64,000 nucleotides of DNA from an uncultured Bacteroidales bacterium. Lineage in GTDB: Bacteria; Bacteroidota; Bacteroidia; Bacteroidales; UBA932. This document shows positions 9,115 through 59,455 of the stretch, piece by piece. The position numbers and the translations under genes were made by a program. Each line of letters opens with the position of its first letter. Within the stretch, counting starts at the first letter, position 1. The DNA is taken from the NCBI GenBank assembly GCA_949286415.1, contig CASEBV010000023.1:62001-126000 (forward strand). The letters are read 5' to 3'. Under the pieces are notes generated by a model. The model did no database searches, was not told where the DNA came from, and was given only the letters and a program-made list of their open reading frames with translations.

Positions 9115-9128
9115 GGTGCACCTCCCGT

Positions 9129-13655: not shown

Positions 13656-13703
13656 CTTTTTATTGACAAAATGAAATCCACCGTCCTCGAAAATAAATGA
13701 AAA

Positions 13704-13743: not shown

Positions 13744-13814
13744 CTCTGATCCGCTGTACGCTACTTGAATATTGTTTCAGAACCTGTCAGAGACCGGTCA
13801 TGAAACAATGGTCA

Positions 13815-14369: not shown

Positions 14370-14414
14370 GATTCTTTTCCTTTTAACTGTTAATTGTCAA
14401 TTGCAACAATATTT

Positions 14415-14443
14415 ATCTAAATTGGAATTATTCAAATTTAGAT
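14415..14443 (-). promoter_or_regulatory. Candidate operator (9-bp inverted repeat) for reverse rubrerythrin
   Basis: ATCTAAATT (14415-14423) and AATTTAGAT (14435-14443) are perfect inverted arms 11 bases apart, beginning about 9 bases downstream of the -7 box and therefore near the transcript start. Its size and position fit a dimeric repressor site; PerR/Fur-like control of a peroxidase gene is a guess. Confidence 0.5.
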
Positions 14444-14451
14444 TACGGCTA

Positions 14452-14482
14452 CAAAAGTACGCAATTTCCCGGAAAAAGCAAA
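14452..14482 (-). promoter_or_regulatory. -33/-7 promoter for reverse rubrerythrin
   Basis: Minus strand: TTTG (14479-14482), exactly 19 bases, TACTTTTG (14452-14459). Full match to the Bacteroides consensus, giving an untranslated leader of about 75 bases. Confidence 0.75.
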
Positions 14483-14596
14483 TTTTTCACACAAAAAGAG
14501 AGACAAAAAGGACAACAGACGGAAATAAATGCTAATTTTGCATTTGTATCCGGAGGCCATATGCCGCAGCATAGCAATATGCCTCCTCATATTTAA

Positions 14597-14683
14597 GGAA
14601 AGATGCCGGAGTGGTCGATCGGGCCGCACTCGAAATGCGGTGAACGCGCAAGTGTTCCCAGAGTTCGAATCTCTGTCTTTCCG
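14597..14683 (+). tRNA. tRNA-Ser (CGA)
   Basis: An 87-base class II tRNA: acceptor GGAAAGA/TCTTTCC, anticodon arm CCGCA-CTCGAAA-TGCGG (anticodon CGA), long variable arm, T-loop TTCGAAT, discriminator G at 14683. CCA is not encoded. TAATTTTG at 14533-14540 could be its -7 box though no TTTG lies at the right distance. It ends 13 bases from the convergent kinase stop. Confidence 0.93.
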
Positions 14684-14696
14684 CAAAACCGACCTT

Positions 14697-44067: not shown

Positions 44068-45357
44068 ATGAAGAATTTTGTAGAAGAACTCAGATGGAGA
44101 GGCATGCTCCAGGACATCATGCCGGGAACAGAGGAAAAACTGATGGAAGGGCCGACTGCAGCTTATGTCGGCATTGACCCCACTGCCGATTCGCTGCACA
44201 TAGGACATCTCGTCAGCATAATGATATTGAAACATTTCCAGAACTGCGGGCACAAGCCGTTCGCTCTTGTCGGAGGCGCGACGGGAATGATCGGCGACCC
44301 TTCGATGAAGTCCCAGGAAAGGAATCTCCTTGACGAGGAGACGCTCGCCCACAATGTGGCATGCATCAAGAAGCAGCTCTCAAGATTCCTTGACTTCGAG
44401 TCGGATGCCCCGAACAAGGCGGAGCTCGTGAACAACTACGACTGGATGAAGGACTACACATTCATCGACTTCACCCGCGACATCGGCAAGCACATCACGG
44501 TCAACTATATGATGGCGAAGGATTCGGTAAAGAAGAGGCTTTCGTCGGAATCCCGCGAGGGTATGTCCTTCACGGAATTCACATACCAGCTGCTCCAGGG
44601 ATATGACTACCTCTGGCTCTATGAGCACAAGGGCTGCACCCTGCAGATGGGAGGAAGCGACCAGTGGGGCAACATCACCACCGGCAGCGAACTCATCAGA
44701 AGAATCCTCGGCAAGGAGGCGTATGCCCTCACCTGCCCTCTCATCACCAAGGCCGACGGAGGCAAATTCGGAAAGACCGAGAAAGGGAACATCTGGCTCG
44801 ACCCGGAGAGGACTTCCCCATACCAGTTCTACCAGTTCTGGCTCAATGTTTCAGACGAGGATGCGGCAAGATACATAAAGATATTCACCATGCTCCCGAA
44901 GGAAGAGATTGAGGCTGCAGTCGCAGAACATGCGGAGGCCCCGCACCTGAGGAAGCTCCAGAAACTGCTTGCCAGGGAAATCACCGTCATGGTACACGGG
45001 GAGGAAGAATACAACAAGGCAGTCGCAGCATCTGAGATGCTTTTCGGGAATGCTACCTCCGAGTCCTTGAAGAAACTGGACGAAAAGACCTTCCTGCAGG
45101 TATTCGACGGAGTGCCGACATTCGAAATCGCCGCCGGGAAGCTTCCGTTGAACATCCTGGAACTCCTTGCAGTGGAGACATCCGTATTCCCCTCCAAGGG
45201 AGAATGCCGCAAGATGGTCCAGGCCTCAGGCGTGAGCATAGACAAGGAAAAGGTAACCGACATAAATGCCGTGATAGGACAGGAATCCGTGCTCAACGGC
45301 AAATACATCCTCGCCCAGAAAGGCAAGAAGAACTATTTCATCATCATACTGAAATAA
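44068..45357 (+). CDS. tyrS: Tyrosine--tRNA ligase
   Basis: A 429-residue class I synthetase. ATG 44068 ([16 protein letters not shown]) is chosen because the frame upstream crosses the promoter. The HIGH motif is [38 protein letters not shown] and [13 protein letters not shown] bind tyrosine; [13 protein letters not shown] is the KFGKT version of the KMSKS loop usual in this TyrRS subclass. A C-terminal S4-like RNA-binding domain ends the protein ([14 protein letters not shown]). It charges tRNA-Tyr. Confidence 0.97.
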
Positions 45358-45409
45358 TCCGTTGGCATACGCCTGCAAAAGCCGGCATACACTTACAAAA
45401 CAGAGAAAC

Positions 45410-45754
45410 ATGGAAGGAGAATCAACAAGACAGCTGAAGGTGGCGAAAGAACTCCAGAGGGACATGGCGGAAATCATCCGCAGCAAAGGGATGGCCATGT
45501 TCGGAGGTGCCCTCGTGTCCGTAAGCGGAGTAAAAGTAAGTCCGGACCTGTCCGTGGCAAAGATATATGTAAGCATCTTCCCTTCGGACAAGGCGGAAAG
45601 CGTCATGAACATCCTTGAAGAAAACTCCAGGGCACTCAGGGGGGAACTCGGCAACAGAGTCGGGAGGCAGCTCAGGATTGTGCCGGAGATTGCATTCTTC
45701 AGAGATGATTCGCTCGATTATGTGGAACATATCGAGGAACTTCTGAAAAAATGA
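45410..45754 (+). CDS. rbfA: Ribosome-binding factor A
   Basis: A 114-residue RbfA from ATG 45410 (MEGESTRQLKVAKELQRDMA); the frame is open further upstream but without a likely start. The KH-like fold shows VSVSGVKVSPDLSVAKIYVS and LRIVPEIAFFRDDSLDYVEH, both diagnostic. It helps 16S rRNA maturation of the 30S subunit, important in the cold. It overlaps the permease gene by four bases (ATGA). Confidence 0.92.
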   Translation: MEGESTRQLKVAKELQRDMAEIIRSKGMAMFGGALVSVSGVKVSPDLSVAKIYVSIFPSDKAESVMNILEENSRALRGELGNRVGRQLRIVPEIAFFRDDSLDYVEHIEELLKK

Positions 45755-46983
45755 ATCTGCCGCTGTTCATAGCCTTCCGCTATCTTTTTGCCAAGAAATC
45801 GCACAATGTCATAAACATAATCTCGGCAATAAGCGCCATCGGCATGGCTATCGGAACGGCAGCCCTGATCATCATACTGTCTGTATACAACGGATTTGAC
45901 TCCATTGTGAAGACCATGCTCGGTAATGTCGAGCCTGAATTGCTGATAACACCGGCGGAAGGCAAGACATTTGTCCCTGAAGGAGAGGTCTATGACTGGC
46001 TTTACGCACAGCAGTCCGTGACAAGCATCTGCACTGTGCTTCAGGAAAATGTATTCATCAATTATGAGGGCAAGCAGAGTATAGCAAAGGCCAAGGGCGT
46101 GGACAGCATCTACGAGGAAGAATCCCCGCTGAAGGATTATCTTCGCCGCGGGGAATTTTCCCTGCATCACGGAGACCTGCCGCTCGCAGTCACAGGTGCA
46201 GGACTGGCACACCGCCTGGGCATAGACCCCAGGTTTGTCGCCCCGATAGAAATGTATTTCCCGTCCAGAACCAGGAATATATCCCTCCTTAACCCTGCTG
46301 CATCGATTGAAAGCGTAAAGGTCTTTCCGTCCGGAATATTCTCCGTCAACAATGATATTGACAATTCATTGGTAATCCTACCGATAGAGACAATGCGCGA
46401 ACTGCTTGGATATGACGGCAATGAAGTTTCCGCTGTTGAAATACGCATGACCGGAGCCTCTGCCAAAGAAATCAGAAAAGTACAGGAAACCGCAGAAAAA
46501 ATGCTTGGATCCGGATTCCGGGTAAGCGACAGATTCGGACAGAATCCGGCACTCTACAAGATGATGAAATATGAGAAGGCATCCATATACCTCATACTCA
46601 TGTTCATCATAATAATCATAGCTTTCAATATATTCGGCTCACTCTCCATGCTCATCATGGAAAAAAAGGATGACATGCTCACATTCATGAGCATGGGTGC
46701 ATCAGACAACCTTATGAAAAGGGTGTTTATCCTGGAGGGATGGATGATTTCTCTTGCCGGTCTTGCCGCAGGGATAGTGACAGGTATCGGGTTTGCTCTT
46801 ATCCAACAGTACTTCGGCATCATCAGGATGCCAGGCAACTTCATAATTGAGGCATACCCCGTCATAATTTCACTGCAGGACATTCTGCTCACTTCTGTCT
46901 GTATAGCTGCGGCCGGCTATCTGATAGCCCGTCTGCCGGTAGCCCTGTACTACAAAAAACATCACGGCCATACAGCCGCCTGA
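45751..46983 (+). CDS. LolC/E-like ABC transporter permease (FtsX family)
   Basis: A 410-residue inner-membrane permease: one N-terminal membrane segment (IISAISAIGMAIGTAALIII), a long periplasmic MacB-like domain (about 45-265) and three C-terminal segments (LILMFIIIIIAFNIFGSLS, ISLAGLAAGIVTGIGFAL, DILLTSVCIAAAGYLIARLP). This is the lipoprotein-release LolC/E layout; the partner ATPase is not adjacent, as often in Bacteroidetes. It should extract lipoproteins from the inner membrane for passage to the outer membrane, and the window contains many lipoproteins. A strong palindrome ends the transcript. Confidence 0.85.
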   Translation: MNLPLFIAFRYLFAKKSHNVINIISAISAIGMAIGTAALIIILSVYNGFDSIVKTMLGNVEPELLITPAEGKTFVPEGEVYDWLYAQQSVTSICTVLQENVFINYEGKQSIAKAKGVDSIYEEESPLKDYLRRGEFSLHHGDLPLAVTGAGLAHRLGIDPRFVAPIEMYFPSRTRNISLLNPAASIESVKVFPSGIFSVNNDIDNSLVILPIETMRELLGYDGNEVSAVEIRMTGASAKEIRKVQETAEKMLGSGFRVSDRFGQNPALYKMMKYEKASIYLILMFIIIIIAFNIFGSLSMLIMEKKDDMLTFMSMGASDNLMKRVFILEGWMISLAGLAAGIVTGIGFALIQQYFGIIRMPGNFIIEAYPVIISLQDILLTSVCIAAAGYLIARLPVALYYKKHHGHTAA

Positions 46984-47035
46984 GTGTGACGCAGAGCATA
47001 CGAAAAGAGTACCCTGATGATTCACAAACAAATAA

Positions 47036-47061
47036 AACGGGATGGCCGCGGCCATCCCGTT
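47036..47061. terminator. Bidirectional terminator between permease and lipoprotein operon
   Basis: AACGGGATGGCC-GC-GGCCATCCCGTT is a perfect 26-base palindrome with an A-run before and T-rich sequence after it, placed between convergent genes. Confidence 0.85.
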
Positions 47062-47093
47062 CATTAAATTATTCCGAAGCTGAGGACTTCTGA

Positions 47094-49784
47094 CTACATC
47101 GCAGACTCTCCGCCCTCGCCGAAGAGCATCCTTTCCGGTTTTTCTGCAATGCCTTCCGGCCTCGGCTGTACTCCGAACCTTGCATTGAAGTCTTCTCTCG
47201 TGGCAGTCTTGTAGCCTTTCAGTTCAAACGGTCTTGGAGAGGAGACATTGTGCGGCGTCAAATCCGGAGAAGCTATCTCGAGAGGTCTGAATTCAAGAGG
47301 CACCGAATATGGAGACATGGCGCCATACGCTGCGACAATCTCGACTATCACCGGTTTTCCGCAGATGCCTTCGGCATCTTCAGGGACGGCCACGGCAACT
47401 CTGCTTGAGTTCCAGGACATCTTCACCAGAGCTTCAGTCTTTTTGTAGCTGCCGTATCGCTTGACTTCTTCAATGAGCTGGTCTGTCGGCATCAGATAAA
47501 TCTCGCTGAAGCTGTTCCTGAATGTCACGAAGTACCATCCGGCAGTACCTTCTCCCGGAGTTATCGTAATCTTGGCTCCGGCATAGTCACTCCACTGTTC
47601 CGGAGGATAAGTATAAGGATCGTCTCTCACAAGATCATTCCCGTCAAGGATTTCATAGCTGATGTCCACAGAAGCGTCACTCACCGGGATATCAGAGCCA
47701 GGCGTGGTGAAGCGTACTTTGGTCAATCCGGTGGTAACAGCCCCCATGTAGCCGAACGCCATGACATAATAGTCGGTATTCGGCTTTATGCTGTTATAGA
47801 ACAGGTCTATCTGGGTCGGAAGGTTCTTCTGGCCCGAATATGTCACATAATACATGCTGCTGTTGCTCCAATACTCGACCACAGCTGCAATCGCGGCTTC
47901 ATCGGAACCATATTCCTCATATCTTTCCACAGGCATACAGCCCAGGACATACAGCTCGTCATCCCTGGATGGCTCGCAGGTAAGTGTCACTTCAGAAGTC
48001 TTGACATCTGTCACTCCAAGCCCGAATGTCATGTCCGACGGGACAAGGACACCCGTGCGGAACTGCTCATAATAGACATCCGTTGTCCTCCGTCCGTCGG
48101 CATCGACTCCGAAAAGGACAAGAGTATAATTGGTAGAAGGATCCAGAGGATTGATGCCCAAGTCCCTGTATGAATTGAGATGCTGCTCTCCGGAGAATGT
48201 GTACTCGCCGTTCATCCAGTCATATTCGTATGAATTGGCCTCATTGATGAGAATAGTCGCCAGATCAGATCTCGAATATGATGAAAAATATTCAGTGGTA
48301 AGACAAGTCACATAATACTTTGTGGACGGGTCGCTCGGCACAATGTCGAAATCCGCCATATATGATGTAGTCACTTCAGAGGAGATTTCAAATGTACAGT
48401 CATCCGTAATCTGATGCGCATTTGTAGTGAACGGAGCCTTCTGGAAATTTGTTGTAATCAGCCCCTGGTCCTCAAGTCCGAATGCATAGGCATAATAATC
48501 CGTATCGGAAAAAAGATTTTCGGCGGAAACAATATACTCGCCCAGCTGTGTGAAATCCGACCATTGCTTCCACACCTGGAACAACTGCGCTATCCAGATT
48601 TCCTCATCAATGTAGTCTACAATCTCATCCATTATGGCCTGGTCGCTTCCTGCAGTCTCGTAATCCGCCTTGGATATTATTCCTGTATAATATCTGACAT
48701 TCTCATTCGACGGAATCACCCGCACGGACAGATCTGAATCCGTGCTGCTCTCAAGCCTGAACTCAAAGTCGCAGTCAAGCTGTTCAGGGGACTTTGTGGA
48801 AAAGCGTACAACAGTCATTCTGGTAAGAATGTCAGCATCCGTATCCAGCCCGTAGGCATACGCACAATATTCGGTGCCGGGGTCAAGGCTGCTCCATTTC
48901 ACGCCCTTATCCCCTTTCTGGAGCACGCCCTCCAGATATACGGACAACTCCACACCAAGCCGGGAAGCCTCGGACTTGAGATAATCGATGTCATCGCGGA
49001 TATACCTGTCATAGTCGCCTTCATATTCATCAAAGACAGACTTAGGGACAAGACCGTTGACATAAGTCATGTTCTTGTCATCAGGGAACCATGAGACCGT
49101 GGCCTCCACTTCCGTCACTCCGGTGACATTTATGACGAACCTGTCATCCACAGACTCCGCAGGCTTCTGAATCAGCTCGATGACAACAGGCTCGGCATTC
49201 GGATAACTCAACGTTATGTTTGCACTTCTGCCGGACTCGTAGAAATTGACTTCCGGGAAAATCTTGATTACGCCGTACTCAGGATATTCGAAATGATTTG
49301 CCCATTCTGCATCAGCCTCCGCAGTTATCTCCTGTCCGGTAACATAATTCTCCACTTCATATTCAATGAGCACCTCTGTGCCGTCAGGTTCCGCCTCAAG
49401 CGGAGTCTCCGATTCCACTATGATGGCTGCAGAACCGCTTTCCGCCACAGACAGCTGCTTGACGGTGACGATGACAGGCTCAACAGGACCGTATGTCACA
49501 GTCACCATGGCATTCCTTATGCCGCTTCCGTCATTGCGGTCAACGGCAAAGCGGATTTCCCCGTCACTGGAATAATCGAAATCATGAATCCAGTCCTGAT
49601 CGGCTCTGGCGTCCACTGATATGCCTCTTTCCGCATTCTGCACTTCATATACTATGACACCTTCGGTACTGTTGAAGGCCAGCGGTGCGGGAGTCTCCAC
49701 CACCAGGACCGGAGAAAGTTCTTCCTGCGCACAGCCGGACAGCACAAGGGCAGGAATCAGAAAAAGATATAGGAATTTTTTCAT
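47094..49784 (-). CDS. Lipoprotein with two BACON domains, four FN3-like repeats and DGND domain (paralogue A)
   Basis: An 896-residue lipoprotein (MKKFLYLFLIPALVLSGC lipobox). Two BACON domains (about 25-110 and 118-206) are followed by four FN3-like repeats. The recurring motif at each repeat end is CAYAYGLDTDADILTRM, YAYAFGLEDQGLITT, LVLFGVDADGRRTTDV and YVMAFGYMGAVTT. After these a C-terminal domain begins VSDASVDISYEILDGNDLVR, and a tail PFELKGYKTATREDF ends the chain. It is colinear with the genes at 49842-52007 and 53435-55903. It should be exposed on the outer membrane; the ligand is unknown. It is last of four lipoprotein genes on this strand, and a 20-base tandem duplication sits just before its start codon. 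Confidence 0.8.
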   Translation of the reverse strand: MKKFLYLFLIPALVLSGCAQEELSPVLVVETPAPLAFNSTEGVIVYEVQNAERGISVDARADQDWIHDFDYSSDGEIRFAVDRNDGSGIRNAMVTVTYGPVEPVIVTVKQLSVAESGSAAIIVESETPLEAEPDGTEVLIEYEVENYVTGQEITAEADAEWANHFEYPEYGVIKIFPEVNFYESGRSANITLSYPNAEPVVIELIQKPAESVDDRFVINVTGVTEVEATVSWFPDDKNMTYVNGLVPKSVFDEYEGDYDRYIRDDIDYLKSEASRLGVELSVYLEGVLQKGDKGVKWSSLDPGTEYCAYAYGLDTDADILTRMTVVRFSTKSPEQLDCDFEFRLESSTDSDLSVRVIPSNENVRYYTGIISKADYETAGSDQAIMDEIVDYIDEEIWIAQLFQVWKQWSDFTQLGEYIVSAENLFSDTDYYAYAFGLEDQGLITTNFQKAPFTTNAHQITDDCTFEISSEVTTSYMADFDIVPSDPSTKYYVTCLTTEYFSSYSRSDLATILINEANSYEYDWMNGEYTFSGEQHLNSYRDLGINPLDPSTNYTLVLFGVDADGRRTTDVYYEQFRTGVLVPSDMTFGLGVTDVKTSEVTLTCEPSRDDELYVLGCMPVERYEEYGSDEAAIAAVVEYWSNSSMYYVTYSGQKNLPTQIDLFYNSIKPNTDYYVMAFGYMGAVTTGLTKVRFTTPGSDIPVSDASVDISYEILDGNDLVRDDPYTYPPEQWSDYAGAKITITPGEGTAGWYFVTFRNSFSEIYLMPTDQLIEEVKRYGSYKKTEALVKMSWNSSRVAVAVPEDAEGICGKPVIVEIVAAYGAMSPYSVPLEFRPLEIASPDLTPHNVSSPRPFELKGYKTATREDFNARFGVQPRPEGIAEKPERMLFGEGGESAM

Positions 49785-49786
49785 CA

Positions 49787-49824
49787 GTTTGCTATAATTA
49801 ATATCTGTTTGCTATAATTAATAT
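49787..49824 (-). repeat. Tandem 18-base duplication in the leader of paralogue A
   Basis: GTTTGCTATAATTAATAT at 49787-49804 and again at 49807-49824, period 20. It begins two bases upstream of the start codon on the minus strand and ends within the short gap before the 49842 gene. It may alter translation initiation or be a site for slipped-strand change. Confidence 0.85.
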
Positions 49825-49841
49825 AAATCAATGTCTGTGTG

Positions 49842-52007
49842 TCAGTCCAGATATGCTGCAGAAGGAGGCACCTGCACCTCAACCAGCACAGGCCTGCCTT
49901 CATTGCCGGAGGTATCAATCCCGTAGCCGGCTCCGCAGAGGACAGAGTTCCACGCAACGGCATACCTCACCGTCGTCTTATTGTAATTTCCGCGGCCATT
50001 CGTATAGATAGAATAGAACAGTTCTTCCGTATCCATTGCCTGAAGATAGCTCAGGCTGTTGCCGAAGCCGGAAAAGAACCACGAATCAGCTCCGTCCGGC
50101 GCTATCGTAAAGACAACGGCAGCCTTGTTCTTGAAATCCTCGTTACGGACAGGATCCTCCTGATAGACATCATTCCCGTCAATTATCTCAGAGGAAATTA
50201 CCAATGAAGCAGATGAGAATTGCCGCTGAGGCGTGGAAAAGCCGGCCTTGAACAAGGCGGTATTTACACCGCCGGAATATCCGAAAGCATAAGCGATATA
50301 ATCAGTGCCGGCACTGAGTGTACTTCCGTCATAATACTCCGTATGCTGTCCGCTGACAGGAACAATGCCATATCCGAGGAGCTGTCCCGCCATTGCATCC
50401 ATGAAGGCGGCATCCGAAGGATAACTTTCATATTCAGATTCGGAGACACAACCGTACAAGTAGTAATCCCCTGTGTCCGGTGTGTATGTGACTGTGGCAT
50501 TCCCCGGCTTCAGGTCACTGACGGAAAGTGTTATCTTCATGTCAGAGACACCCACTTCCGCAGTCCTGCATGAGGCGTATGCCACCTTCGTGGTCCTTTC
50601 ACCTTCATTGCTGACTCCGAATACAAAAACCGTATATTCCGTGTCAGCCTGAAGCTGCACCGTATTCAGGTCTTCCGCTGTATCAAGAGTCCTCTCCCCC
50701 GTCCATATATACAAGGTGCCGTCCCAGTTTATGCCGTTGTTGTCGGCCATATTGATGAGAAGGGCAGCGACATCCTCGGCAGAATTTGCATCAAGGATTT
50801 TGGACTCGGCCGCATAGACATAATATCTTGTGCCGGCGTCCGAAGGCACAACCGTAACATCAAATGACTGCGATGTTATGTCCGAGAATGTCAGCTCAAA
50901 TGTACAGTCATCGGTAATCTCGACTTCATTTGCGGAAAATCTGGTTTTGGTCACCGGTGTCGTCGCGAAACCGGCCTCATCCAGCCCGAAGGCGAAGGCA
51001 TAGTATTCTTCTGCCGGAATAAGCCCAGTGAACTTTTCACTATGCTGCCCTGTCTCCGTAAAGTTCGAGAAAGTCCATGTAATTCCGAATGAAGCATAAT
51101 ATTCTATGAGTGCAGAACATTCCTGCACCACGGATGCGACAAGAAGCTCGTCAGAGCCCATGGAATTCTCGTAGTCAGATACCGGGACCACACCCATATA
51201 GTACTGCAGCTGCGGAAAGTCCGGAGTGACCGTGACTTCGGCGGAATTCTGCCTGACAGACGAAATGGTTATATCAAAGCCGGCATCCGGATAATCATAT
51301 CCTCCGCTGCGGAATTCCTCCACAGTCAGATTGTCTCCGAATGTGCCGTCTATGTCAAGGGAAAAGGCAAAGGCACAATAGTCGCTTTCGGGCTGGAGGC
51401 CGTCGAATCTTTGTGAAGACTCCCCGGTCACCACATATTTCCTTATCACGGCGTTCAGCCTCAGCCCGCTTGACTCGGCCTCCTGCCTCATCTGCTCCAC
51501 CAGAGAATCCATGAAAGCCGCATCGGAACCGTACGAGTCAATGTCTGACTTAAGCGTACACCCCGTGTAATAAGTCTGCTCCGAGTCCAGAGGACTGAAG
51601 CTGGCCACAGCACTCCGGGCACCCTCAAGTTCCACGGATATGTCGATTTTCATGCCTCCCGTCTGGTCATAGGCATCCTGCGTCAGAGTAAGTACCATGT
51701 CCGGACATTCCGGATAAGTGACAGTCAGGTGTGCACTTCTGTGTTCAAGACCTGTATTTCTGTCCATGACAAAGACAATCCTGTCATCAAGGCATTCGAT
51801 GTCATGCACCCACTCCTGGTCTGAACGGCACCTCATTATGGCATATTCAAACGGATTCTTTATTGAGAAGCATATGCTGAATTCTCCGCCGTCGGCAGAA
51901 AAAGCCGCTGTCTCTTCAAAAATCACTTCCGGCACAAAATCCTCCGACTCTCTGCAGCCTGCCAGGAAAAGCACCGGAAGAACAAGCATCCATACAAAAC
52001 GATTCAT
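49842..52007 (-). CDS. Lipoprotein with BACON domain, four FN3-like repeats and DGND domain (paralogue B)
   Basis: A 721-residue lipoprotein, MNRFVWMLVLPVLFLAGC. One BACON domain (about 22-118; SDQEWVHDIECLDDRIVFVM, TLTQDAYDQTGG) is followed by four repeats ending CAFAFSLDIDGTF, YAFAFGLDEAGFATT, VFVFGVSNEGERTTKV and IAYAFGYSGGVNT, and a C-terminal domain with LVISSEIIDGNDVYQEDP. Each repeat also carries the segment Y..Y.SD..(F/A)(M/L)...V between strands, for example SDYENSMGSDELLVASVVQE. It ends soon after the C-terminal domain and lacks the tails of its two paralogues. Expected surface exposed. Confidence 0.8.
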   Translation of the reverse strand: MNRFVWMLVLPVLFLAGCRESEDFVPEVIFEETAAFSADGGEFSICFSIKNPFEYAIMRCRSDQEWVHDIECLDDRIVFVMDRNTGLEHRSAHLTVTYPECPDMVLTLTQDAYDQTGGMKIDISVELEGARSAVASFSPLDSEQTYYTGCTLKSDIDSYGSDAAFMDSLVEQMRQEAESSGLRLNAVIRKYVVTGESSQRFDGLQPESDYCAFAFSLDIDGTFGDNLTVEEFRSGGYDYPDAGFDITISSVRQNSAEVTVTPDFPQLQYYMGVVPVSDYENSMGSDELLVASVVQECSALIEYYASFGITWTFSNFTETGQHSEKFTGLIPAEEYYAFAFGLDEAGFATTPVTKTRFSANEVEITDDCTFELTFSDITSQSFDVTVVPSDAGTRYYVYAAESKILDANSAEDVAALLINMADNNGINWDGTLYIWTGERTLDTAEDLNTVQLQADTEYTVFVFGVSNEGERTTKVAYASCRTAEVGVSDMKITLSVSDLKPGNATVTYTPDTGDYYLYGCVSESEYESYPSDAAFMDAMAGQLLGYGIVPVSGQHTEYYDGSTLSAGTDYIAYAFGYSGGVNTALFKAGFSTPQRQFSSASLVISSEIIDGNDVYQEDPVRNEDFKNKAAVVFTIAPDGADSWFFSGFGNSLSYLQAMDTEELFYSIYTNGRGNYNKTTVRYAVAWNSVLCGAGYGIDTSGNEGRPVLVEVQVPPSAAYLD

Positions 52008-52030
52008 CTCAAGAATTTCGGGAAAAATTA

Positions 52031-53383
52031 TCAGAATTCATATGCAGCCCTGACTTCCCACACTCCCCAACCTTCGTCTCCGCCTTTAGGATATGTGTAG
52101 ACAGAGTAGGTTCCGCTATAAGAAGTATAGTACAGGTACACATATTCTCCGGCGCTTCTTTCTGTCGAAGTATCCATTGAAGCAGGGTAAATCCCATTGC
52201 TGTTGAGCAATGACTTGAAGTTCGGGTCATTGCTCAGATTCTTGAAGAAGTCCGCTACCTCTTCCTGTGCAAGCATATACCAGTCCTGTCCGAAATTGTC
52301 GTCTATCCACTTGAATGCCGGATATGCGTCAGGATAATTAGACATTGACCTGACCTTCTCAGTATTGGCCCGGCCGTCGTCAAGGCTGGACGCTCCAACA
52401 AGTTCATTTTCAGTACTCCATACAACAGTTGTTCTCACGAACTCTGTTGACAGGACCTTTCCATGCCTGCCGTTGTCGGTAATCCAGAATACGAATCCGG
52501 TCTTGCCGTCCTCAGTCGTATATGTGTCACCAAGCTTGTATCTCGTACCTGTCATCTCTGTCACCGTCACATTACATGTGCCTGAAGCCTTTCCGCATGT
52601 TGCCGTCACTACGGCAGTTCCAGGAGATACCGCAGTCACTGTCCCGTCGGAGCTGACAGTCGCGACTTCGTCATCGGAGCTGCTCCAAGTCACAGTCTTG
52701 TCTGTTGTGTTCACCGGCCCTACAGTTGCAGTAAGCCTTTCGCTGTCAGAAACTTCAAGAGTAAGCTCCGACTTGTTCAGTGTGACAGATTCGGCCTCTA
52801 TCGGCAGTACATTGACTGTACATTTCGCCGACACATCCCCGACAGACGCTGTAATGACGGCTTCGCCAACTCCGTTTCCGGTCACATGCCCGGACTGGGT
52901 CACATTGGCCACAGAAGCATTGGAACTGCTCCATACAATTGTCACGTCAGGTACATTTTCCGGCTTATAGGAAGCCGTGATATCAAATGATTCTCCTATG
53001 AGAATATTTTTTTCATTACAGTCCAGCGTAATTTCCGTGACCTCAGGCTTGATTACAGTCACATTGCACTGCGCCATCTGCCCGCCGGCCCGCGCCGTGA
53101 TGACGGCGTCTCCGAGGCCGACAGCCGACACGAGACCGTCATCGTCTACAGTTGCCACAGATTCCGAACTGGAAATCCATTCCACTGAGTCATAGTCGGC
53201 ATTTTCAGGCTCAACAACAACCTCAAGACGAACAGCAGCCCCGAGATCAAGGGTAAGTTCACGTTGGGAAAGCGAGACCTTTTGCACGGCAGTCTTTTCC
53301 TGCAGGTCATCGGTATTACATCCGGAAATTAATCCGGCAAGCACCAGCGCAAGCGCGGATGCAAAAAAAACTTTGGTTTTCAT
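52031..53383 (-). CDS. Lipoprotein with three Ig-like (Big_2) domains and DUF1566-like C-terminus
   Basis: A 450-residue lipoprotein: signal MKTKVFFASALALVLAGLIS, lipobox ISGC. Three Big_2 domains, each of about 80 residues, are marked by SVATVDDDGLVSAVGLGDAV, SVANVTQSGHVTGNGVGEAV and EVATVSSDGTVTAVSPGTAV. The C-terminal 170 residues (GRHGKVLSTEFVRTTVVW, YVYLYYTSYSGTYSVY, VWEVRAAYEF) resemble DUF1566/FISUMP-like modules seen at the end of Bacteroidetes surface proteins. It lies between two BACON-FN3 paralogues with gaps of 23 and 51 bases, so it should share their transcript and location. Confidence 0.8.
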   Translation of the reverse strand: MKTKVFFASALALVLAGLISGCNTDDLQEKTAVQKVSLSQRELTLDLGAAVRLEVVVEPENADYDSVEWISSSESVATVDDDGLVSAVGLGDAVITARAGGQMAQCNVTVIKPEVTEITLDCNEKNILIGESFDITASYKPENVPDVTIVWSSSNASVANVTQSGHVTGNGVGEAVITASVGDVSAKCTVNVLPIEAESVTLNKSELTLEVSDSERLTATVGPVNTTDKTVTWSSSDDEVATVSSDGTVTAVSPGTAVVTATCGKASGTCNVTVTEMTGTRYKLGDTYTTEDGKTGFVFWITDNGRHGKVLSTEFVRTTVVWSTENELVGASSLDDGRANTEKVRSMSNYPDAYPAFKWIDDNFGQDWYMLAQEEVADFFKNLSNDPNFKSLLNSNGIYPASMDTSTERSAGEYVYLYYTSYSGTYSVYTYPKGGDEGWGVWEVRAAYEF

Positions 53384-53434
53384 ACTCGTCAGTTTTATGT
53401 CAATTTTACAATAGGATTATATCGGGAGAGGACA

Positions 53435-55903
53435 TCAGATGCCGGCGGCTTCAGGCAAAGCTTCGCCTCTGGACTCAAGCATAGCCGCGACCGTTTCGCG
53501 CGCAATTTCTTTCAGAGAACGTATCTCACCAGCCGCTGCAGACCGTCCTGAAGTCACAGCTTCAACATCCTCCGGAGCAAGCAGATATCTTTTCGGCACA
53601 TACTCCCTGATGACAGCATTTCCTCTTGCCTCACGGACTCTTTCTGCTGCCGTGAATGATGATGAGAGCGGCACTGAAGAAGCTGATGAAGAGCCGGAGA
53701 ACAGTTCCGGTTCAAATTCCGCAATCTGTGATCTGTCTGCCTCAAGACTGACAATGACAGGGTCTCCGTCCTTGCCGTCAGCGTCCACCCCGAGAGCCAG
53801 TGCCGCACAGTTCGAATAATTCCACGGAACACCGAGGACAGACACTCCTGAAGATGTCCCCGGGAATCTGGAGCCGTTTGCCTTGATGGCGCCGAGCAGC
53901 ACATCAAGATTCAGTCCCTGCATATATTCGGCGCTGCGCTCCTCTATCCATCCATACCAATGGTCTGTGCCGGAGGTCGGTATAAACTCTATGCGCAGAG
54001 CCGCAATGTCAGACCATGTCGAGGCCGGATATTTCTCCGGATCAAACTCTACCAGGTCATTCCCGTCATACACGGTCACATCAATTCTGACAGAGGCATC
54101 GCTGACTTCCCTTTCCGGCGTCTCGCATCTTACGAGCGTGACATCCGTCGTCTGGTTCCAGTAGCTGCATCCGAATACGAAGACATAATATACAGTACCG
54201 GGCCGTACGAAATCATAGTCATAGTCATAATAGATTCTCTGGCTCACTTCTCCCTGATTCTGATACAGGGCATGATCCGTATTGTTTCGGCATGCATCTT
54301 CAGCGACTGCATCCGGATCACTCCCCAGAGACTGGTATTGGGCCTCCGTAATGATTCCCATGACATAAGTCTCGTCCTGAGACGAAGGCGACACGTTCAC
54401 GGTGATCGACGAATAATCGGCAGACTCCACAGACACTCTGAATGTCATGTCCGAACGGGGCACTTCCGCAGTGCTGAACTTGAAGATGCCGACATCAGTT
54501 GTTCTTTCTCCCTTTTCATCAACCCCGAAAGCCACAAATGTATATCCTGAATTCGGGACAAGGCCGTCAAAAGTCTCTTCACGGTATCCGGAAAACAGGG
54601 AGGAAACCCAGCCCGGCTCCGTCTGCATGCCGTTGATACAGGCATCGGCTATGACCTCCGGAGAAAGTCCCGCCACAGAAGCGTCTTCAAACACTGTGAT
54701 GAAATACTTTGTGTCATCGGATGAAGGAGACACCGACAAGGTAGCCTCGTACGGTCCCGCCTCAACAAGCCCCATGTCAAAGGTACAGTCATCAGTCACT
54801 TCAACAGAAAGCGTCTTCTTGCGCGCCAGCGACAACGGAGTAGTCTGATAGCCGTTGTCAACACCGAACGCGTAATACACATATTCGCTGCCGGAATAGA
54901 GATTCGGGGAATCAATCTGTATCGGTCCGCTGTAAGTGAAGTCCGCCCAGGTCTTTTCAATGCCGAGGCCGGCATACATGTTTATCACATACTGGATTTC
55001 CGTAATCATTGTCGGGACAATCTTGCCATCGCCATAGGTATCGTATTCAGCAGCAGTAAGATTGCCGGCCAGGTACCTGAACGATGCGGAGCCCGGAGTA
55101 AAGACTGCCGAAATGTTTCTTGTCCCGACTTCCGGGAATGTGATTGCAATATCTTCATCGAACCATGGAACCGGAGCAGTTCTCAACGGCTCCTTGAAGA
55201 CCGCAGTCACCGGCACTGCGTCCTTTCCCATCCCATACACATAGATATAATAGTCGGTATCCGGGAGGAAAGTATCCATTGTCGTCACAGTCTCCCCGCT
55301 GCGCAACAGCACATCTTCAAGGAGCATTTCAAGAGAATATCCGTAGGTTTCGGCAATTGAGGAGAACAGATCAAGATTGTATTGTATGAGTTCCTCGTCC
55401 GATTCGTATGCGTCAATTTCCTCCTTTGTACCTGTCAGGAGAAGATATGTCATCTCCGGATCTTCAGGAATCACCTTTATTGTTGCCTCAAATGCCGTTA
55501 TATCCGTCACTTCTATGGCAAAGCCCTGAACCGCAGAGGAGCCGGAACGGCCCTCCTGCGACACGGACACGCTCACAGACTCGGCACCGGGTGCAGCAAT
55601 GGACACGGATGCAGTTCTGGGATTCTCCGAGTCATTTTCCCCTATGCTGAATACTACGGACCCGGGCGAGGAAGCATCCACATCATAAATCCAGTCCGCC
55701 GAAGGAACGGCGTCGACAGCCAGACTGACTTCGGCTCCGGTATGCTTGTCAGTAATACTATAGGTGATTGTACCCCTCTGGGCTTCAGATGTAAACTCAT
55801 CAGGAGCCTCAATGATGCTTATGACCGGGACGGTCGGGTCCTGCTCATTGACACAGGCAGCCAGCAGCAACGCTCCGGTCAGAATCGCCAAAATTCTTTT
55901 CAT
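53435..55903 (-). CDS. Lipoprotein with BACON domain, four FN3-like repeats and DGND domain (paralogue C)
   Basis: An 822-residue lipoprotein from ATG 55903 (MKRILAILTGALLLAAC lipobox); an open frame of 23 more codons exists but has no signal peptide. BACON domain at about 25-125 (SADWIYDVDASSPGSVVFSI), then four repeats ending YIYVYGMGKDAVPVT, YYAFGVDNGYQTTPL, FVAFGVDEKGERTTDV and YVFVFGCSYWNQTTDV. The C-terminal domain begins VSDASVRIDVTVYDGNDLVE, followed by a long helical tail (RSLKEIARETVAAMLESRG). First gene of the four-lipoprotein row and adjacent to its promoter. Confidence 0.8.
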   Translation of the reverse strand: MKRILAILTGALLLAACVNEQDPTVPVISIIEAPDEFTSEAQRGTITYSITDKHTGAEVSLAVDAVPSADWIYDVDASSPGSVVFSIGENDSENPRTASVSIAAPGAESVSVSVSQEGRSGSSAVQGFAIEVTDITAFEATIKVIPEDPEMTYLLLTGTKEEIDAYESDEELIQYNLDLFSSIAETYGYSLEMLLEDVLLRSGETVTTMDTFLPDTDYYIYVYGMGKDAVPVTAVFKEPLRTAPVPWFDEDIAITFPEVGTRNISAVFTPGSASFRYLAGNLTAAEYDTYGDGKIVPTMITEIQYVINMYAGLGIEKTWADFTYSGPIQIDSPNLYSGSEYVYYAFGVDNGYQTTPLSLARKKTLSVEVTDDCTFDMGLVEAGPYEATLSVSPSSDDTKYFITVFEDASVAGLSPEVIADACINGMQTEPGWVSSLFSGYREETFDGLVPNSGYTFVAFGVDEKGERTTDVGIFKFSTAEVPRSDMTFRVSVESADYSSITVNVSPSSQDETYVMGIITEAQYQSLGSDPDAVAEDACRNNTDHALYQNQGEVSQRIYYDYDYDFVRPGTVYYVFVFGCSYWNQTTDVTLVRCETPEREVSDASVRIDVTVYDGNDLVEFDPEKYPASTWSDIAALRIEFIPTSGTDHWYGWIEERSAEYMQGLNLDVLLGAIKANGSRFPGTSSGVSVLGVPWNYSNCAALALGVDADGKDGDPVIVSLEADRSQIAEFEPELFSGSSSASSVPLSSSFTAAERVREARGNAVIREYVPKRYLLAPEDVEAVTSGRSAAAGEIRSLKEIARETVAAMLESRGEALPEAAGI

Positions 55904-55951
55904 CTTCTGTTCTAATAAATGAATGGATATGCCCTGAAACATACATCCGGG

Positions 55952-55981
55952 CAAAATTATCGGGGATACCACGGATGCAAC
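55952..55981 (-). promoter_or_regulatory. Candidate promoter of the lipoprotein operon
   Basis: Minus strand: GTTG (55978-55981), 18 bases, TAATTTTG (55952-55959), about 50 bases before paralogue C. The -7 box is a full match; the -33 differs at one base. Confidence 0.45.
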
Positions 55982-56087
55982 CAGTCAAAGCATAAATTAT
56001 GCACAAACAATTTTTGTAAAATTAATCGGAAAAATTCATAATTCCAACTTTTTTCTGCCGGAATATGACAAGGCCGGAATATGACAA

Positions 56088-56345
56088 TCAGAACAATGTG
56101 GGATGGCTGTCCGACAGACATGAGAGCACCTTCTCCATCACTGCTTCCCGGAAAAGAACCGACTTTGAGCTGACGCCGTATTGGCCGCAATAACGGTCAA
56201 TCGCCTCCAGTTCCCTATCATTCAAATATATGACCTGCCGATGCCGCCGCACAAGCGCAGCCCTGTGCTTGTCCATGAATGCCGGATCAATACCTTTCCC
56301 TACAATCTTTTTACGCATTTCTTCTGAAATATTTTTAGGAATCAT
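56088..56345 (-). CDS. Small ribbon-helix-helix-like protein
   Basis: An 85-residue protein, MIPKNISEEMRKKIVGKGID, with a basic centre (RAALVRRHRQVIYLNDRELE) and ending DSHPTLF. The VIYLNDRELEAIDRYCGQYG segment followed by SKSVLFREAVMEKVL looks like a ribbon-helix-helix DNA-binding core, though this is by eye. The start at 56345 overlaps the stop of the EamA gene (TGATG), so it is translationally coupled to it. I do not recognise a named family, but the pattern is familiar from Bacteroides unknowns. Confidence 0.65.
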   Translation of the reverse strand: MIPKNISEEMRKKIVGKGIDPAFMDKHRAALVRRHRQVIYLNDRELEAIDRYCGQYGVSSKSVLFREAVMEKVLSCLSDSHPTLF

Positions 56346-57328
56346 CACATCACGTCGGAATATGGATCTGCACCGGAATCTCCGGATACTTTTCTCATGG
56401 CTTTTTCCGAATCCGCCCTTGACTTGCTCCTGTTTACCATCAGCACTCCGGAAAAAACAAGGATGACTGCCACAACCTTTATTATATTGAACGAGTCCAT
56501 TCCCCAAATGACTGCTATAAAAGCTGCAACTGCAGGCTGTAGATAATTGTACATTGCCACAAGAGTCGGACGCAGGGTCTTCTGCCCCAGCGGCACCAGA
56601 AAGTAACACAGGAATGTGCCGCAGAAAAGAATGAACCCGAGTCCGGCGAACTGTCCGGCAGGCACAGCTCCCCAGGGCTCCGAAAAGAACCTGCCGGATG
56701 ACAGGGGAAGCATGACCGCCGAGGCGAAGGTAAACATCCATTTCATCAGGGTGACAGGAGAATACTTGACAATTATATCCTTGAAAATCACCAGATACGT
56801 GGCGTATGAGCATTGGGCGAAAAAGCAGAGGAGATCCCCCCATACATTAGATGAGGCCGATGAAGAGTCCGAAGCATGGAAACCTGGCATCAGACGGTTT
56901 CCGAAGGCCAGAAGAAGTGCGCCGCAGGCCCCGAGAAGCACACCGATGGCCTTGCGGGAAGTAATGGGCTCCTTGAGAATGACTGCGGCAAGCAGCATTG
57001 TGACAATAGGCAGGGATGTGGTGATGATGGATGCATCTACGGGCGAAGTCATGGACACGCCTGAAATATATACCCCCTGATTGAGCACTATGGCAAACAT
57101 GGCAGCTCCGAAAATCTTGAGAAAATCCTTTCTCTCGACTTTCTCCCTTTTCATGAAAGGGGAAACAAGCCAGAACAGCAGGGCCGCCCCGAAAATCCGC
57201 ACATCCGTCACCGTCACGGCATCCACAAGCCCTCCGTCCATGACAAATTTAGAAATCGGCGCCATCGCACCCCACATCACACTTGCGGAAAACATCGCAA
57301 TATGTCCCGTTCTCTGATCTTTGGTCAT
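56345..57328 (-). CDS. EamA-family (drug/metabolite) exporter
   Basis: A 327-residue membrane protein with ten hydrophobic segments in two EamA repeats: MFSASVMWGAMAPISKFVM at the start and WGDLLCFFAQCSYATYLVIF for the second half. The repeat-end signatures PVDASIITTSLPIVTMLLA and LRPTLVAMYNYLQPAVAAF match DMT transporters (loop before TM4/TM9). The C-terminal 35 residues are charged and cytoplasmic. Substrate unknown; amino acids or metabolites are typical. It is followed by the RHH-like gene with a one-base overlap. Confidence 0.85.
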   Translation of the reverse strand: MTKDQRTGHIAMFSASVMWGAMAPISKFVMDGGLVDAVTVTDVRIFGAALLFWLVSPFMKREKVERKDFLKIFGAAMFAIVLNQGVYISGVSMTSPVDASIITTSLPIVTMLLAAVILKEPITSRKAIGVLLGACGALLLAFGNRLMPGFHASDSSSASSNVWGDLLCFFAQCSYATYLVIFKDIIVKYSPVTLMKWMFTFASAVMLPLSSGRFFSEPWGAVPAGQFAGLGFILFCGTFLCYFLVPLGQKTLRPTLVAMYNYLQPAVAAFIAVIWGMDSFNIIKVVAVILVFSGVLMVNRSKSRADSEKAMRKVSGDSGADPYSDVM

Positions 57329-57370
57329 ACTCTGGAATCCATAAGATTGATTTGAGGTGGCAAAATTATA

Positions 57371-57407
57371 AAAAAAGGGGACTAGCTGTCAAGCCTGTCC
57401 CCTTTTT
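57371..57407. terminator. Terminator after rng
   Basis: AAAAAGGGGAC (57372-57382) pairs with GTCCCCTTTTT (57397-57407). Read on the minus strand it is followed by a T-run, and its 3' arm includes the end of the rng stop codon region. Confidence 0.8.
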
Positions 57408-58941
57408 CAGTGTAGAATTCATTCTGCAGAACCGTAAAATCCGTGATTTCCACAAGCTTGATTTTACATTTGTACTTTGTCTTCCATTTTCCCAGAATAG
57501 AAGAGAACATTCCTTTGCTCAGATAGGCGCCCAGAATAGGACTGACCTTCAGAATAAAAGACCTGATGTTTTTCTCAGCGACATAATAGGCCAGACGGCG
57601 TTCTATGGCTTCGTCAATGACCACGCTGGAGGTTATTTTTCCTGTTCCGTGACATACCGGGCAGACCTCGGTCGTGTTGATTTCAGTGGCAGGCCTCACT
57701 CTCTGGCGGGTAATCTGCATAAGTCCGAACTTAGTGAGAGGAAGCACATTATGCTTGGCACGGTCAGACTGCATCAGTTCCTGCATGTGTTTGAAGAGAG
57801 CATTTCTGTGCTCGTTGCTCTCCATGTCTATGAAATCCACTATCACTATTCCGCCCATGTCCCGCAGCCTCAGCTGACGGGCAATCTCTTCTGCGGCATA
57901 GCAGTTGACATCGTATGTGTTCTGCTCCTGTTCCTTGTTCTTGGACCTCGTCCCGCTGTTCACGTCTATGACATGCAGAGCCTCCGTATGTTCTATGACC
58001 AGATATGCGCCCTGCTTGATAGGGACCACTTTACCGAACGAGCTCTTTATCTGCCGTGTAACTTCAAAATGGTCAAAAATAGGAGTGCTGTCCTTGTAAA
58101 GCCGGACAATCTTCTCCTGTTCAGGCGATATGAGCGATATGTATCTCTTCGTTTCTTCATACACAGACTCGTCATTCACATAAATATTTGAAAACGAATC
58201 ATTGAGAAGATCCCGAAGAATCGTTGTGGTCTTGCTGTATTCGGTGAAAAGCAGCTGAACGGACTTGGATTTAGACAATTTTTTCCAGGCCCCCTCCCAT
58301 TTTTCAATCAGAGCCATCAGCTCCGCATCAAGCACCGCAGCATTCTTGCCTTCTGCGGCAGTGCGGATAATGGCCCCGTAATTTTTCGGAAGGATATTCT
58401 TCACAAGCGACTCAAGTCTCCGTTTCTCTTCCTTGGAAGAGATTTTCTGGGATACGCTCACTTTCTCAGCGAAAGGGAGGAGTACAATGTTCCGTCCTGC
58501 CAATGAAATTTCCGCAGACAGTCGTGATCCTTTGGTTGAAATCGGCTCCTTCACAATCTGCACCACCAGCATCTGGCCAGGGGAAAGGACATTCTCTATA
58601 CGGCCCTCCTTCTCCAGGACCGGGCCAATCTTTATTGATGAGAACAGCTCCTTCGGTGCGACATTGGGATTCAGCTTCCGCACAAACTCGTCAAAGGCCC
58701 GGAAATTGAGCCCGAGATCAAGATAATGTACAAAAGCCTCCTTTTCATCACCGATGTCAACAAAGGCAGCATTCAGGGCGGGAAGAATCTTCTTTACCCT
58801 GCCGAGGTATACATCCCCGACAGAAAAAGAGTGCCCGTGGCTGGACTCCTTGTTCAGTTCGATGAGCCTGTGGTTCTCCATCAGGGCTATCGATACCTCA
58901 GCCGAATTGACATCGACAATAAGATCCTTAACAGATTCCAT
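57382..58941 (-). CDS. rng: Ribonuclease E/G family endoribonuclease
   Basis: A 519-residue RNase G-type enzyme from ATG 58941 (MESVKDLIVDVNSAEVSIAL). S1 domain at about 35-125 (GDVYLGRVKKILPALNAAFV, then DIGDEKEAFVHYLDL); catalytic DNase I-like domain with HVIDVNSGTRSK (metal-binding Asp) and IVIVDFIDMES; zinc-link CPVCHGTG; it ends without the degradosome scaffold of RNase E. It cuts single-stranded RNA for rRNA maturation and mRNA decay. Start by TTG at 58944 is less likely. Confidence 0.93.
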   Translation of the reverse strand: MESVKDLIVDVNSAEVSIALMENHRLIELNKESSHGHSFSVGDVYLGRVKKILPALNAAFVDIGDEKEAFVHYLDLGLNFRAFDEFVRKLNPNVAPKELFSSIKIGPVLEKEGRIENVLSPGQMLVVQIVKEPISTKGSRLSAEISLAGRNIVLLPFAEKVSVSQKISSKEEKRRLESLVKNILPKNYGAIIRTAAEGKNAAVLDAELMALIEKWEGAWKKLSKSKSVQLLFTEYSKTTTILRDLLNDSFSNIYVNDESVYEETKRYISLISPEQEKIVRLYKDSTPIFDHFEVTRQIKSSFGKVVPIKQGAYLVIEHTEALHVIDVNSGTRSKNKEQEQNTYDVNCYAAEEIARQLRLRDMGGIVIVDFIDMESNEHRNALFKHMQELMQSDRAKHNVLPLTKFGLMQITRQRVRPATEINTTEVCPVCHGTGKITSSVVIDEAIERRLAYYVAEKNIRSFILKVSPILGAYLSKGMFSSILGKWKTKYKCKIKLVEITDFTVLQNEFYTEKGDRLDS

Positions 58942-58998
58942 CAAGAAAATTCATTTTCTGGAACAAAATAACAGCAGGGGCAAGCCCCTCTCAATCAC

Positions 58999-59030
58999 AA
59001 AAGGGCGACCATTTTTCCGGTCACCCTTTT
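58999..59030 (-). terminator. Terminator of the HU/COX24-like operon
   Basis: AAAAGGGCGACC (58999-59010) and GGTCACCCTTTT (59019-59030) pair with one mismatch; on the minus strand the stem ends in a T-run. It lies 38 bases past the 59069 stop. Confidence 0.75.
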
Positions 59031-59068
59031 AATTCAGCAGACTGCTAAAATGGCAGACAAACGGAAGA

Positions 59069-59161
59069 TTACTTTCTCTTCTTATGTCTATTCTTGCGCA
59101 AGCGTTTTTTACGCTTGTGCGTTGCCATCTTATGTCTCTTTCTTTTCTTACCGCTTGGCAT
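59069..59161 (-). CDS. 30-residue AURKAIP1/COX24-domain (mS38/bS22-like) ribosomal protein
   Basis: ATG at 59159-59161, TAA at 59069-59071, so only 30 residues: it begins MPSGKKRKRHKMATHKRKKR and ends KNRHKKRK. This matches the annotated AURKAIP1/COX24-domain proteins of Bacteroidetes almost throughout, and by pattern the mycobacterial bS22 and mitochondrial mS38 family that sits on the small subunit. It precedes the shared terminator and is 18 bases after HU, so both are probably made from the HU promoter. Position in the Bacteroidetes ribosome is established only by family resemblance here. Confidence 0.8.
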   Translation of the reverse strand: MPSGKKRKRHKMATHKRKKRLRKNRHKKRK

Positions 59162-59179
59162 AATTTTAAAGTTTTACAA

Positions 59180-59455
59180 TTATTTCTTAACAACGTTCAC
59201 AAATACCTTGGCTGGCTTGAATGCCGGAATATTGTGAGCCGGAATAGTCATGGTCGTGTTTTTTGTAATGTTCCTGGCAGCCTTTTCAGCCCTGTGCTTG
59301 ATGATGAAGCTGCCGAAGCCACGGAGATAAACAGGATTGCCCTTTGCAAGAGAATCCTTAACATTCTCCATAAATGACACTACTACTTTCTGAACTGTAA
59401 GTTTCTCAATACCAGTTGCTTTCGCAATCTCGTTTACAATCTCTGCCTTTGTCAT
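59180..59455 (-). CDS. HU-family DNA-binding protein
   Basis: A 91-residue bacterial histone-like protein: MTKAEIVNEIAKATGIEKLT, LRGFGSFIIKHRAEKAARN (the arm and the conserved GFGSF), and the intercalating proline region TIPAHNIPAFKPAKVFVNVV. It bends and wraps DNA; whether HU- or IHF-like cannot be told. It has an exact-consensus promoter (59504-59534) and continues into the 30-residue ribosomal protein gene. Confidence 0.92.
   Translation of the reverse strand: MTKAEIVNEIAKATGIEKLTVQKVVVSFMENVKDSLAKGNPVYLRGFGSFIIKHRAEKAARNITKNTTMTIPAHNIPAFKPAKVFVNVVKK

Follow-up and report, generated by a model that had tools for sequence, protein, structure and literature searches.

BACON domains are usually N-terminal and serve as lipid-anchored spacers (PMC11216935), and acidic residues after the lipoprotein cysteine are a known surface export signal of Bacteroidetes (PMC5080379). 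Sulphated glycosaminoglycans (GAGs) are bound by the C-terminal domain of the Legionella collagen-like protein (Lcl-CTD), which is similar to the lectin-like domains of invasin and intimin (PMC11162425). Our literature searches returned no paper on surface adhesins of Cryptobacteroides and none on FN3 lipoproteins with subtilisin in Bacteroidales. The genus lives in animal guts and, judging by the records found, is mostly represented by metagenome assemblies.

Here we describe a locus in a 64,000-nucleotide stretch (hereafter the window; contig CASEBV010000023.1, positions 62,001 to 126,000) of a Cryptobacteroides genome from the chicken gut, 2.18 Mb in size and 98% complete. The FN3, BACON and Big_2 domains that it encodes are of known kinds; new are FN3 lipoproteins of an unnamed, helix-inserted type that are paired with an Lcl_C-type protein.

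Results

Four lipoprotein genes form one operon

The four genes lie on the minus strand in the order A-D-B-C, separated by 51, 23 and 57 bases (Table 1), which confirms the coordinates, strand and order given in a preliminary description of this DNA. A lipobox is present at the N-terminus of all four products. Judged from this layout, A, D, B and C constitute one lipoprotein operon, presumably co-expressed, and the hairpin and T-rich run after C are likely its intrinsic terminator. From the +1 cysteine onwards the four proteins read CVNEQD, CNTDDL, CRESED and CAQEEL, polar and then acidic, with the acidic residues near positions +3 to +6. They resemble the Bacteroidetes export signal in this respect, a signal that may not be the one used by this genus.

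Table 1 Features of the A-D-B-C operon (window coordinates).
Feature	Coordinates	Strand	Description and basis
Gene A	53435..55903	-	822-aa lipoprotein: BACON, R1-R4, C-terminal DGND domain, 98-aa tail; ORF, BACON above Pfam cutoff, orthologues in same order
A BACON	55541..55843	-	PF13004, 26.0 bits vs cutoff 25; profile span
A R1-R4	54107..55531	-	R1 55172-55531, R2 54809-55171, R3 54458-54808, R4 54107-54457; positional profiles
A C-terminal DGND domain	53732..54106	-	Z 11-16 vs same domain of B and C
Gene D	52031..53383	-	450-aa lipoprotein: three Big_2, C-terminal Lcl_C-like domain; Pfam, model, domain relatives
D three Big_2 domains (stalk)	52550..53293	-	Pfam, model, 7r3t match
D C-terminal domain, remote Lcl_C (DUF1566) relative	52034..52549	-	phmmer link to L073_7
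Gene B	49842..52007	-	721-aa lipoprotein: BACON, R1-R4, DGND domain, tail absent; AlphaFold model, pLDDT 83.8
B BACON	51663..51947	-	Structure match to 3zmr; profile span
B R1-R4	50220..51656	-	R1 51303-51656, R2 50928-51299, R3 50550-50927, R4 50220-50549; profiles and model
B DGND domain	49863..50219	-	Predicted divergent FN3-like, helices between strands; model secondary structure; FN3 tandem pairs align over residues 488..713-716
Gene C	47094..49784	-	896-aa lipoprotein: two BACON, R1-R4, DGND domain, about 70-aa tail
C two BACON	49152..49727	-	49440-49727 and 49152-49439; Pfam, pairwise alignment, profiles
C R1-R4	47691..49148	-	R1 48786-49148, R2 48420-48785, R3 48042-48419, R4 47691-48041; profiles
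C DGND domain	47325..47684	-	Alignment and profiles
Likely intrinsic terminator	47036..47061	-	Perfect GC-rich hairpin AACGGGATGGCCGCGGCCATCCCGTT, then TTATTTG on minus strand; read from sequence

On one side the operon is flanked by what we take to be an EamA-type transporter gene, a ribonuclease G-type gene (rng) and lon, and on the other presumably by a LolE-like permease gene, rbfA, tyrS and tpiA, all named by reading the sequences. Inspection of the neighbours on both sides revealed no susC/susD pair adjoining the operon and no glycoside hydrolase near it; no peptidase is encoded within or directly adjoining A-D-B-C, and PADLOC reported no defence system. An M49 (dipeptidyl-peptidase III-like) peptidase lipoprotein is encoded 4 kb away on the side of the LolE-like gene, past four unrelated genes (window 41515-43131), and an M49 lipoprotein near the operon is also kept in the related loci L025 and L027. 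In L027, from C. intestinigallinarum, an alpha/beta-hydrolase lipoprotein gene (S15/AXE1-like, 10758-11837) separates C from the LolE-like gene; it is absent from the window.

The repeats are predicted FN3 sandwiches with a helical insert

BACON domains are found in all three rods. PF13004 exceeded its curated cutoff of 25 bits in A (26.0 bits) and C (30.1 bits), and B gave no PF13004 match by sequence in Pfam. In B the fold appears in the structural model, residues 26-115 of which match 3zmr_B (BoGH5A) with a Z score of 8.9 and an rmsd of 2.7 Å over 85 aligned residues. The second BACON of C became clear when compared with the first (Z 12-14). BACON number (1, 1 and 2 in A, B and C) and tail length (98 aa, none and about 70 aa) thus differ among the three, as the preliminary description had stated.

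An AlphaFold model of B, built with 13 aligned proteins, reached a mean pLDDT of 83.8 and a pTM of 0.47, and shows six well-folded domains in a row, the hinges between them being uncertain. In R1-R4 of this model, three strands are followed by one to three helices and then by the remaining strands; each repeat is thus predicted to be an FN3 sandwich with a helical insert after the third strand, an insert that ordinary FN3 domains do not have. FN3 tandems dominated the Foldseek and VIA lists for the B model (Z 8-9.7), and the tandem FN3 chains 3t1w, 6mfa and 1fnf align to it with Z 8-9, these multi-domain matches having the large rmsd expected from free hinges. When viral structures were searched with Foldseek, the matches were generic FN3 and BACON proteins.

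Sequence searches pointed to the same folds. A profile search for solved relatives returned only FN3 and BACON proteins, the repeat profile matched fibronectin at E 4e-8 over a short stretch only, and no solved relative of A was found by sequence. None of the repeats reached the cutoff of Pfam fn3 (PF00041), the best score being 15.7 against 25 bits, in B, and NCBIfam gave nothing over cutoff for the operon proteins. The helix-inserted FN3 repeat is a domain family without a Pfam or NCBIfam model. The earlier label "BACON-FN3" therefore stands for BACON in all three proteins and for FN3 as a fold in the model; it does not stand at the fn3 cutoff, and the helical insert comes in addition.

The C-terminal DGND domain, which had been set apart as a distinct final domain, is indeed common to A, B and C. 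In the B model it follows a strand-helix-strand plan like that of R1-R4 and aligns with the FN3 domains that end tandem pairs, from which we infer a divergent fifth copy of the repeat fold. The structure prediction that had been proposed for the repeats and this domain, run here on B, thus yields an FN3-type sandwich with a helical insert, and the sole named family to which the repeats relate is the FN3 fold. FN3 is a fold and implies no function, and the BACON and FN3 folds alike are silent on binding.

R3 opens with the motif TDDC(T/K)F at the R2-R3 junction (residues 365-370 in B, for example). Its cysteine does not vary among A, B, C and a relative assigned to Alistipes; no invariant partner cysteine was found among the compared proteins, and the residue is apparently unpaired. 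The motif is also kept in the relatives at L028, L055, L057, L058, L059 and L062, some of which lie beside subtilase cassettes.

Strings of lipid-anchored beta domains share the outline of SusE/SusF and might, like these, bind glycans as lipoproteins of a dispersed system for polysaccharide utilisation, and BACON has been named a putative carbohydrate-binding domain common in such systems (PMC3267712). However, only 38% of BACON occurrences lie inside polysaccharide-utilisation loci (PULs), and the domain is now thought to be a spacer (PMC11216935). The repeats match FN3 rather than carbohydrate-binding modules, and susC/susD and glycoside hydrolase genes are absent nearby. We consider this reading improbable.

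A, B and C are products of whole-gene duplication

All domain pairs of A, B and C were aligned, and each alignment was scored against 60 shuffles to give a Z value. Same-position pairs across genes reached 8.9-14.5 for R1, 10.4-18.3 for R2, 13.7-24.6 for R3 and 9.2-15.7 for R4, and the DGND domain reached 11.1-16.5. Different-position pairs mostly gave 2-12, with R1-R4 inside one gene at about 2-11. The signal was clearest for R3 and R2 and weakest for R1, which has some off-diagonal rivals (R1 of B with R2 of C, 12.3; R1 of C with R2 of B, 12.8). Maximum-likelihood analysis of 36 repeats from A, B and C of the window, L026 and L027 (three species) gave a tree in which every repeat position was monophyletic, with support of 66, 81, 99 and 57 for R1 to R4, and inside each position clade the orthologues of A, of B and of C grouped together. 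The 12 repeats of the window, previously treated as one family, do align as one, with four invariant columns.

The position-wise Z values and the position clades indicate that the ancestor had four distinct repeats and that genes were copied whole; whole-gene duplication as the origin of A, B and C is thus supported by the sequence comparisons. The order A-D-B-C is kept whole in L023, L024 and L025 (95-99% protein identity) and in L026 and L027 (about 50-75%), which dates the duplications to before the separation of these species. The preliminary description had called the three genes colinear position by position and had favoured duplication of whole genes over multiplication of repeats within them. 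Both proposals are borne out by the Z matrix, the tree and the orthologous operons at about 50-75% identity, with R1 as the weakest position.

Between species, dN/dS was 0.10-0.22 with dS near saturation, and the operon proteins were 53-75% identical to those of L027, compared with 93% for the flanking tyrS. On these values the operon is under purifying selection yet evolves faster than tyrS. Rapid divergence, and the apparent swapping of the block between species described below, would also suit a variable surface coat, that is, structural rods selected for antigenic or phage-receptor variation and lacking a dedicated ligand. The low dN/dS and the retention of TDDC(T/K)F in R3 of several distant relatives instead suggest specific constraint, and we regard a mere coat as very improbable.

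D combines an Ig-like stalk with a putative lectin-like tip

Big_2 (PF02368) matched D above its curated cutoff, at 144.2 bits in three stretches, and a fold search with D returned Big_2, S-layer and cadherin-like Ig tandems. The stalk superposed on the Big_2 of 7r3t with Z 15.5 and an rmsd of 1.0 Å over 82 residues, and on intimin fragments with Z 8.8-9.2. In the model of D the Big_2 domains have a pLDDT of about 90, and the part after residue 312 is mostly under 50.

No Pfam family was reported for the C-terminal 174 aa of D, Lcl_C/DUF1566 (PF07603) included. A phmmer search with this domain found seven proteins outside A-D-B-C operons, all of them from loci fetched for holding an FN3 rod. 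One, L073_7 (E 1.5e-12), itself matches Lcl_C at 38.9 bits against a cutoff of 34.9; another falls below the Lcl_C cutoff and weakly matches an InvE adhesion domain. By analogy, D resembles a lipid-anchored intimin in layout, with an Ig stalk and a putative lectin-like tip whose domain family includes an Lcl_C member, D itself falling short of the Lcl_C cutoff.

The operon block has probably been exchanged recently between species

Apart from the L026 allele, we encountered the A-D-B-C arrangement solely in the window genome, G198, G214, G244 and G271. Near-identical operons are present in one uncultured Bacteroidales record and in metagenome-assembled genomes (MAGs) assigned to Candidatus Cryptobacteroides merdavium and Candidatus Cryptobacteroides gallistercoris. 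Across 44500-59200, most of the sequence agrees at 97-99.8% with G271, G198 and G244, the operon block as a whole standing at about 99%. In G271 the high identity (mostly 97-99.8%) spans about 44.5-59 kb, whereas 35-44 kb is mostly at 90-96% and 15-36 kb averages about 94.7%. The comparison with G198 gives mostly 97.6-99.8% for 45.5-59 kb, followed by a drop to 71-87% inside the same contig. G214 shows the opposite pattern, with lower identity in the operon (64-76%) than in the adjoining 40.5-45.5 kb (76-88%). Most simply, the block was probably exchanged recently between species by homologous recombination; a chimeric contig is a possible alternative for the jump in identity. Apparent whole-block exchange suggests present-day selection on the operon.

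L023 and L026, both from C. merdavium D5-748, are two alleles of one locus in one MAG, at about 50-70% protein identity. L026 was considered as a second operon copy arising by duplication and rejected: the genes that follow the operon in the window are present there at 78%, and L026 seems to be the allele of the L023 locus from another species, so that this MAG is probably mixed.

Related rods are widespread in the genus and have recurrent partners

With a three-gene profile at E 1e-3, 189 of 300 Cryptobacteroides genomes matched, many of the weak matches covering BACON only. The repeat profile, applied at E 1e-6, identified FN3 rods in 13 of 35 high-quality Cryptobacteroides genomes. Across the order, 7 of 295 genomes passed E 1e-10. 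Distant relatives retain the order BACON-R1-(R2/R3)-R3-R4. As far as profiles can tell, BACON-R1-...-R4 is a widespread architecture in Cryptobacteroides, and the idea of an array special to this operon fails.

Family loci were fetched by score, with neighbours disregarded, and fall into several types. The order FN3 rod, DUF4988/LRR, S8 subtilase, lipocalin is found in L057-L060, L062 and L065. Elsewhere an Lcl_C-like gene lies between two FN3 genes, in some cases followed by S8 and lipocalin genes (L073), and L102 reads S8, lipocalin, DUF4988, FN3, Lcl_C-like, FN3, S8, lipocalin, its Lcl_C-like gene encoding a lipoprotein with a D-type domain. Other loci read FN3, Omp28, FN3 or FN3, Lcl_C-like, fn3. 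The window's own genome has two further FN3 loci, one on C6 (FN3, Lcl_C-like, fn3 protein) and one on C17 (Lcl_C-like, FN3, Lcl_C-like). On this comparison, FN3, D-type, FN3 is the core common to the window operon and the peptidase-bearing L073 and L102; the window operon adds a third rod and has no peptidase.

In proximity counts whose related loci are not independent and whose genome sizes are rounded, 11 of the 13 Lcl_C-like copies in FN3-bearing genomes lay within 10 kb of an FN3 rod (0.36 expected; 35 genomes), a partly circular figure since neighbours of FN3 rods had been used to build the domain-D profile, and 8 of the 35 S8 genes in the 13 FN3 genomes did so (0.97 expected); neither count was reached in 200,000 simulated draws. 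Outside the D-domain profile, copies stand at G251:C65, G000:C17, G271:C4 and G214:C55, the last three being related loci.

Cassettes of an FN3 rod, a DUF4988/LRR lipoprotein, an S8 subtilase and a lipocalin-like lipoprotein recur in L057-L060, L062, L065, L073, L101 and L102, and possibly represent a surface protein-digestion system of Cryptobacteroides. At L056 the gene for an M64 (IgA-peptidase-type) protein with two BACON domains (12817-14694) lies upstream of genes for a DUF4988-BACON-Lcl_C-like protein and for an FN3 rod. In L092, from another genus of the same family, five tandem BACON-FN3 lipoprotein genes (3402-13657) are followed by DsbD-like, Omp28/thioredoxin, AhpC/TSA-type and DUF6029 genes; as read from its gene content, this is a longer array with a redox set.

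The preliminary description had also reported that no susC/susD or protease is adjacent. This holds for the window operon and not for the family, whose members often lie beside S8 subtilases and an M64 peptidase; the absence of a protease is therefore a trait of the window copy. Placement in protease cassettes points to protein digestion as much as to adhesion, and the rods could form a protein-capture array that binds polypeptides or passes them to subtilase-type peptidases, in this species in trans. Related rods in S8-bearing cassettes (L057-L060, L062, L065, L073, L102) and beside M64 (L056), together with the excess of nearby S8 genes, favour such a role. However, the window operon neither contains nor adjoins a peptidase gene, the two S8 genes of its genome lie on other contigs away from FN3 rods, and other FN3 loci are partnered with Omp28 or only with Lcl_C. 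We consider protein capture rather unlikely here.

Discussion

With moderate confidence, we interpret the operon as a co-expressed array of outer-surface lipoprotein adhesins or receptors. A, B and C would be lipid-anchored rods, presumably on the outer surface, in which BACON domains next to the membrane would act as spacers and five FN3-type domains with helical inserts per rod would display binding surfaces outward. D would contribute a three-Ig (Big_2) stalk bearing a C-type-lectin-like (Lcl_C-related) tip, the layout of intimin and invasin on a lipid anchor. At the cell surface, A-D together might bind and retain mucus glycoproteins of the host, glycosaminoglycans or protein from the diet. 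The surface-binding or adhesion array suggested earlier thus stays plausible, with binding itself putative, and is better founded than before through the stalk-and-tip layout of D and the genus-wide occurrence of the D-tip domain beside such lipoproteins. A broader proposal, which we put forward tentatively, is that helix-inserted FN3 rods and an Lcl_C-type lectin-like lipoprotein may together make up a surface recognition module of Bacteroidales that is genus-wide and so far undescribed; peptidases, lipocalins or Omp28 would join it at particular loci, and gut species would pass it to one another as a unit.

If the adhesin or receptor reading is true, the operon offers a testable route to how Cryptobacteroides attach or feed, and an FN3 rod with an Lcl_C-type protein would be a two-part signature for annotating many "hypothetical lipoproteins".

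Comparison with known systems

Similar to SusE/SusF, the rods are lipid-anchored strings of beta domains in Bacteroidales; unlike them, they belong to an operon without susC/susD, and no carbohydrate-binding modules were found in it. With BACON lipoproteins (PF13004; BoGH5A, 3ZMR), A-C share the lipid anchor followed by a membrane-proximal BACON, whereas they continue with four or five predicted helix-inserted FN3 domains and have no catalytic or known binding domain. FN3 tandems (PF00041) are matched by the repeat fold of the B model and by the repeat profile's hit to fibronectin; the repeats of A-C differ in scoring below the fn3 cutoff and in their predicted helical insert after the third strand. 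The tip of D is remotely related, via L073_7, to Lcl_C/DUF1566 of the Legionella collagen-like protein and may likewise be a surface lectin-like tip, but D is too diverged for a match, has no collagen region, and carries a lipid anchor and a Big_2 stalk. Finally, D shares with intimin and invasin an Ig-like stalk, which intimin domains match, and a putative C-type-lectin-like tip; it is a lipoprotein without their outer-membrane barrel, and the relation in sequence is at the Ig level only.
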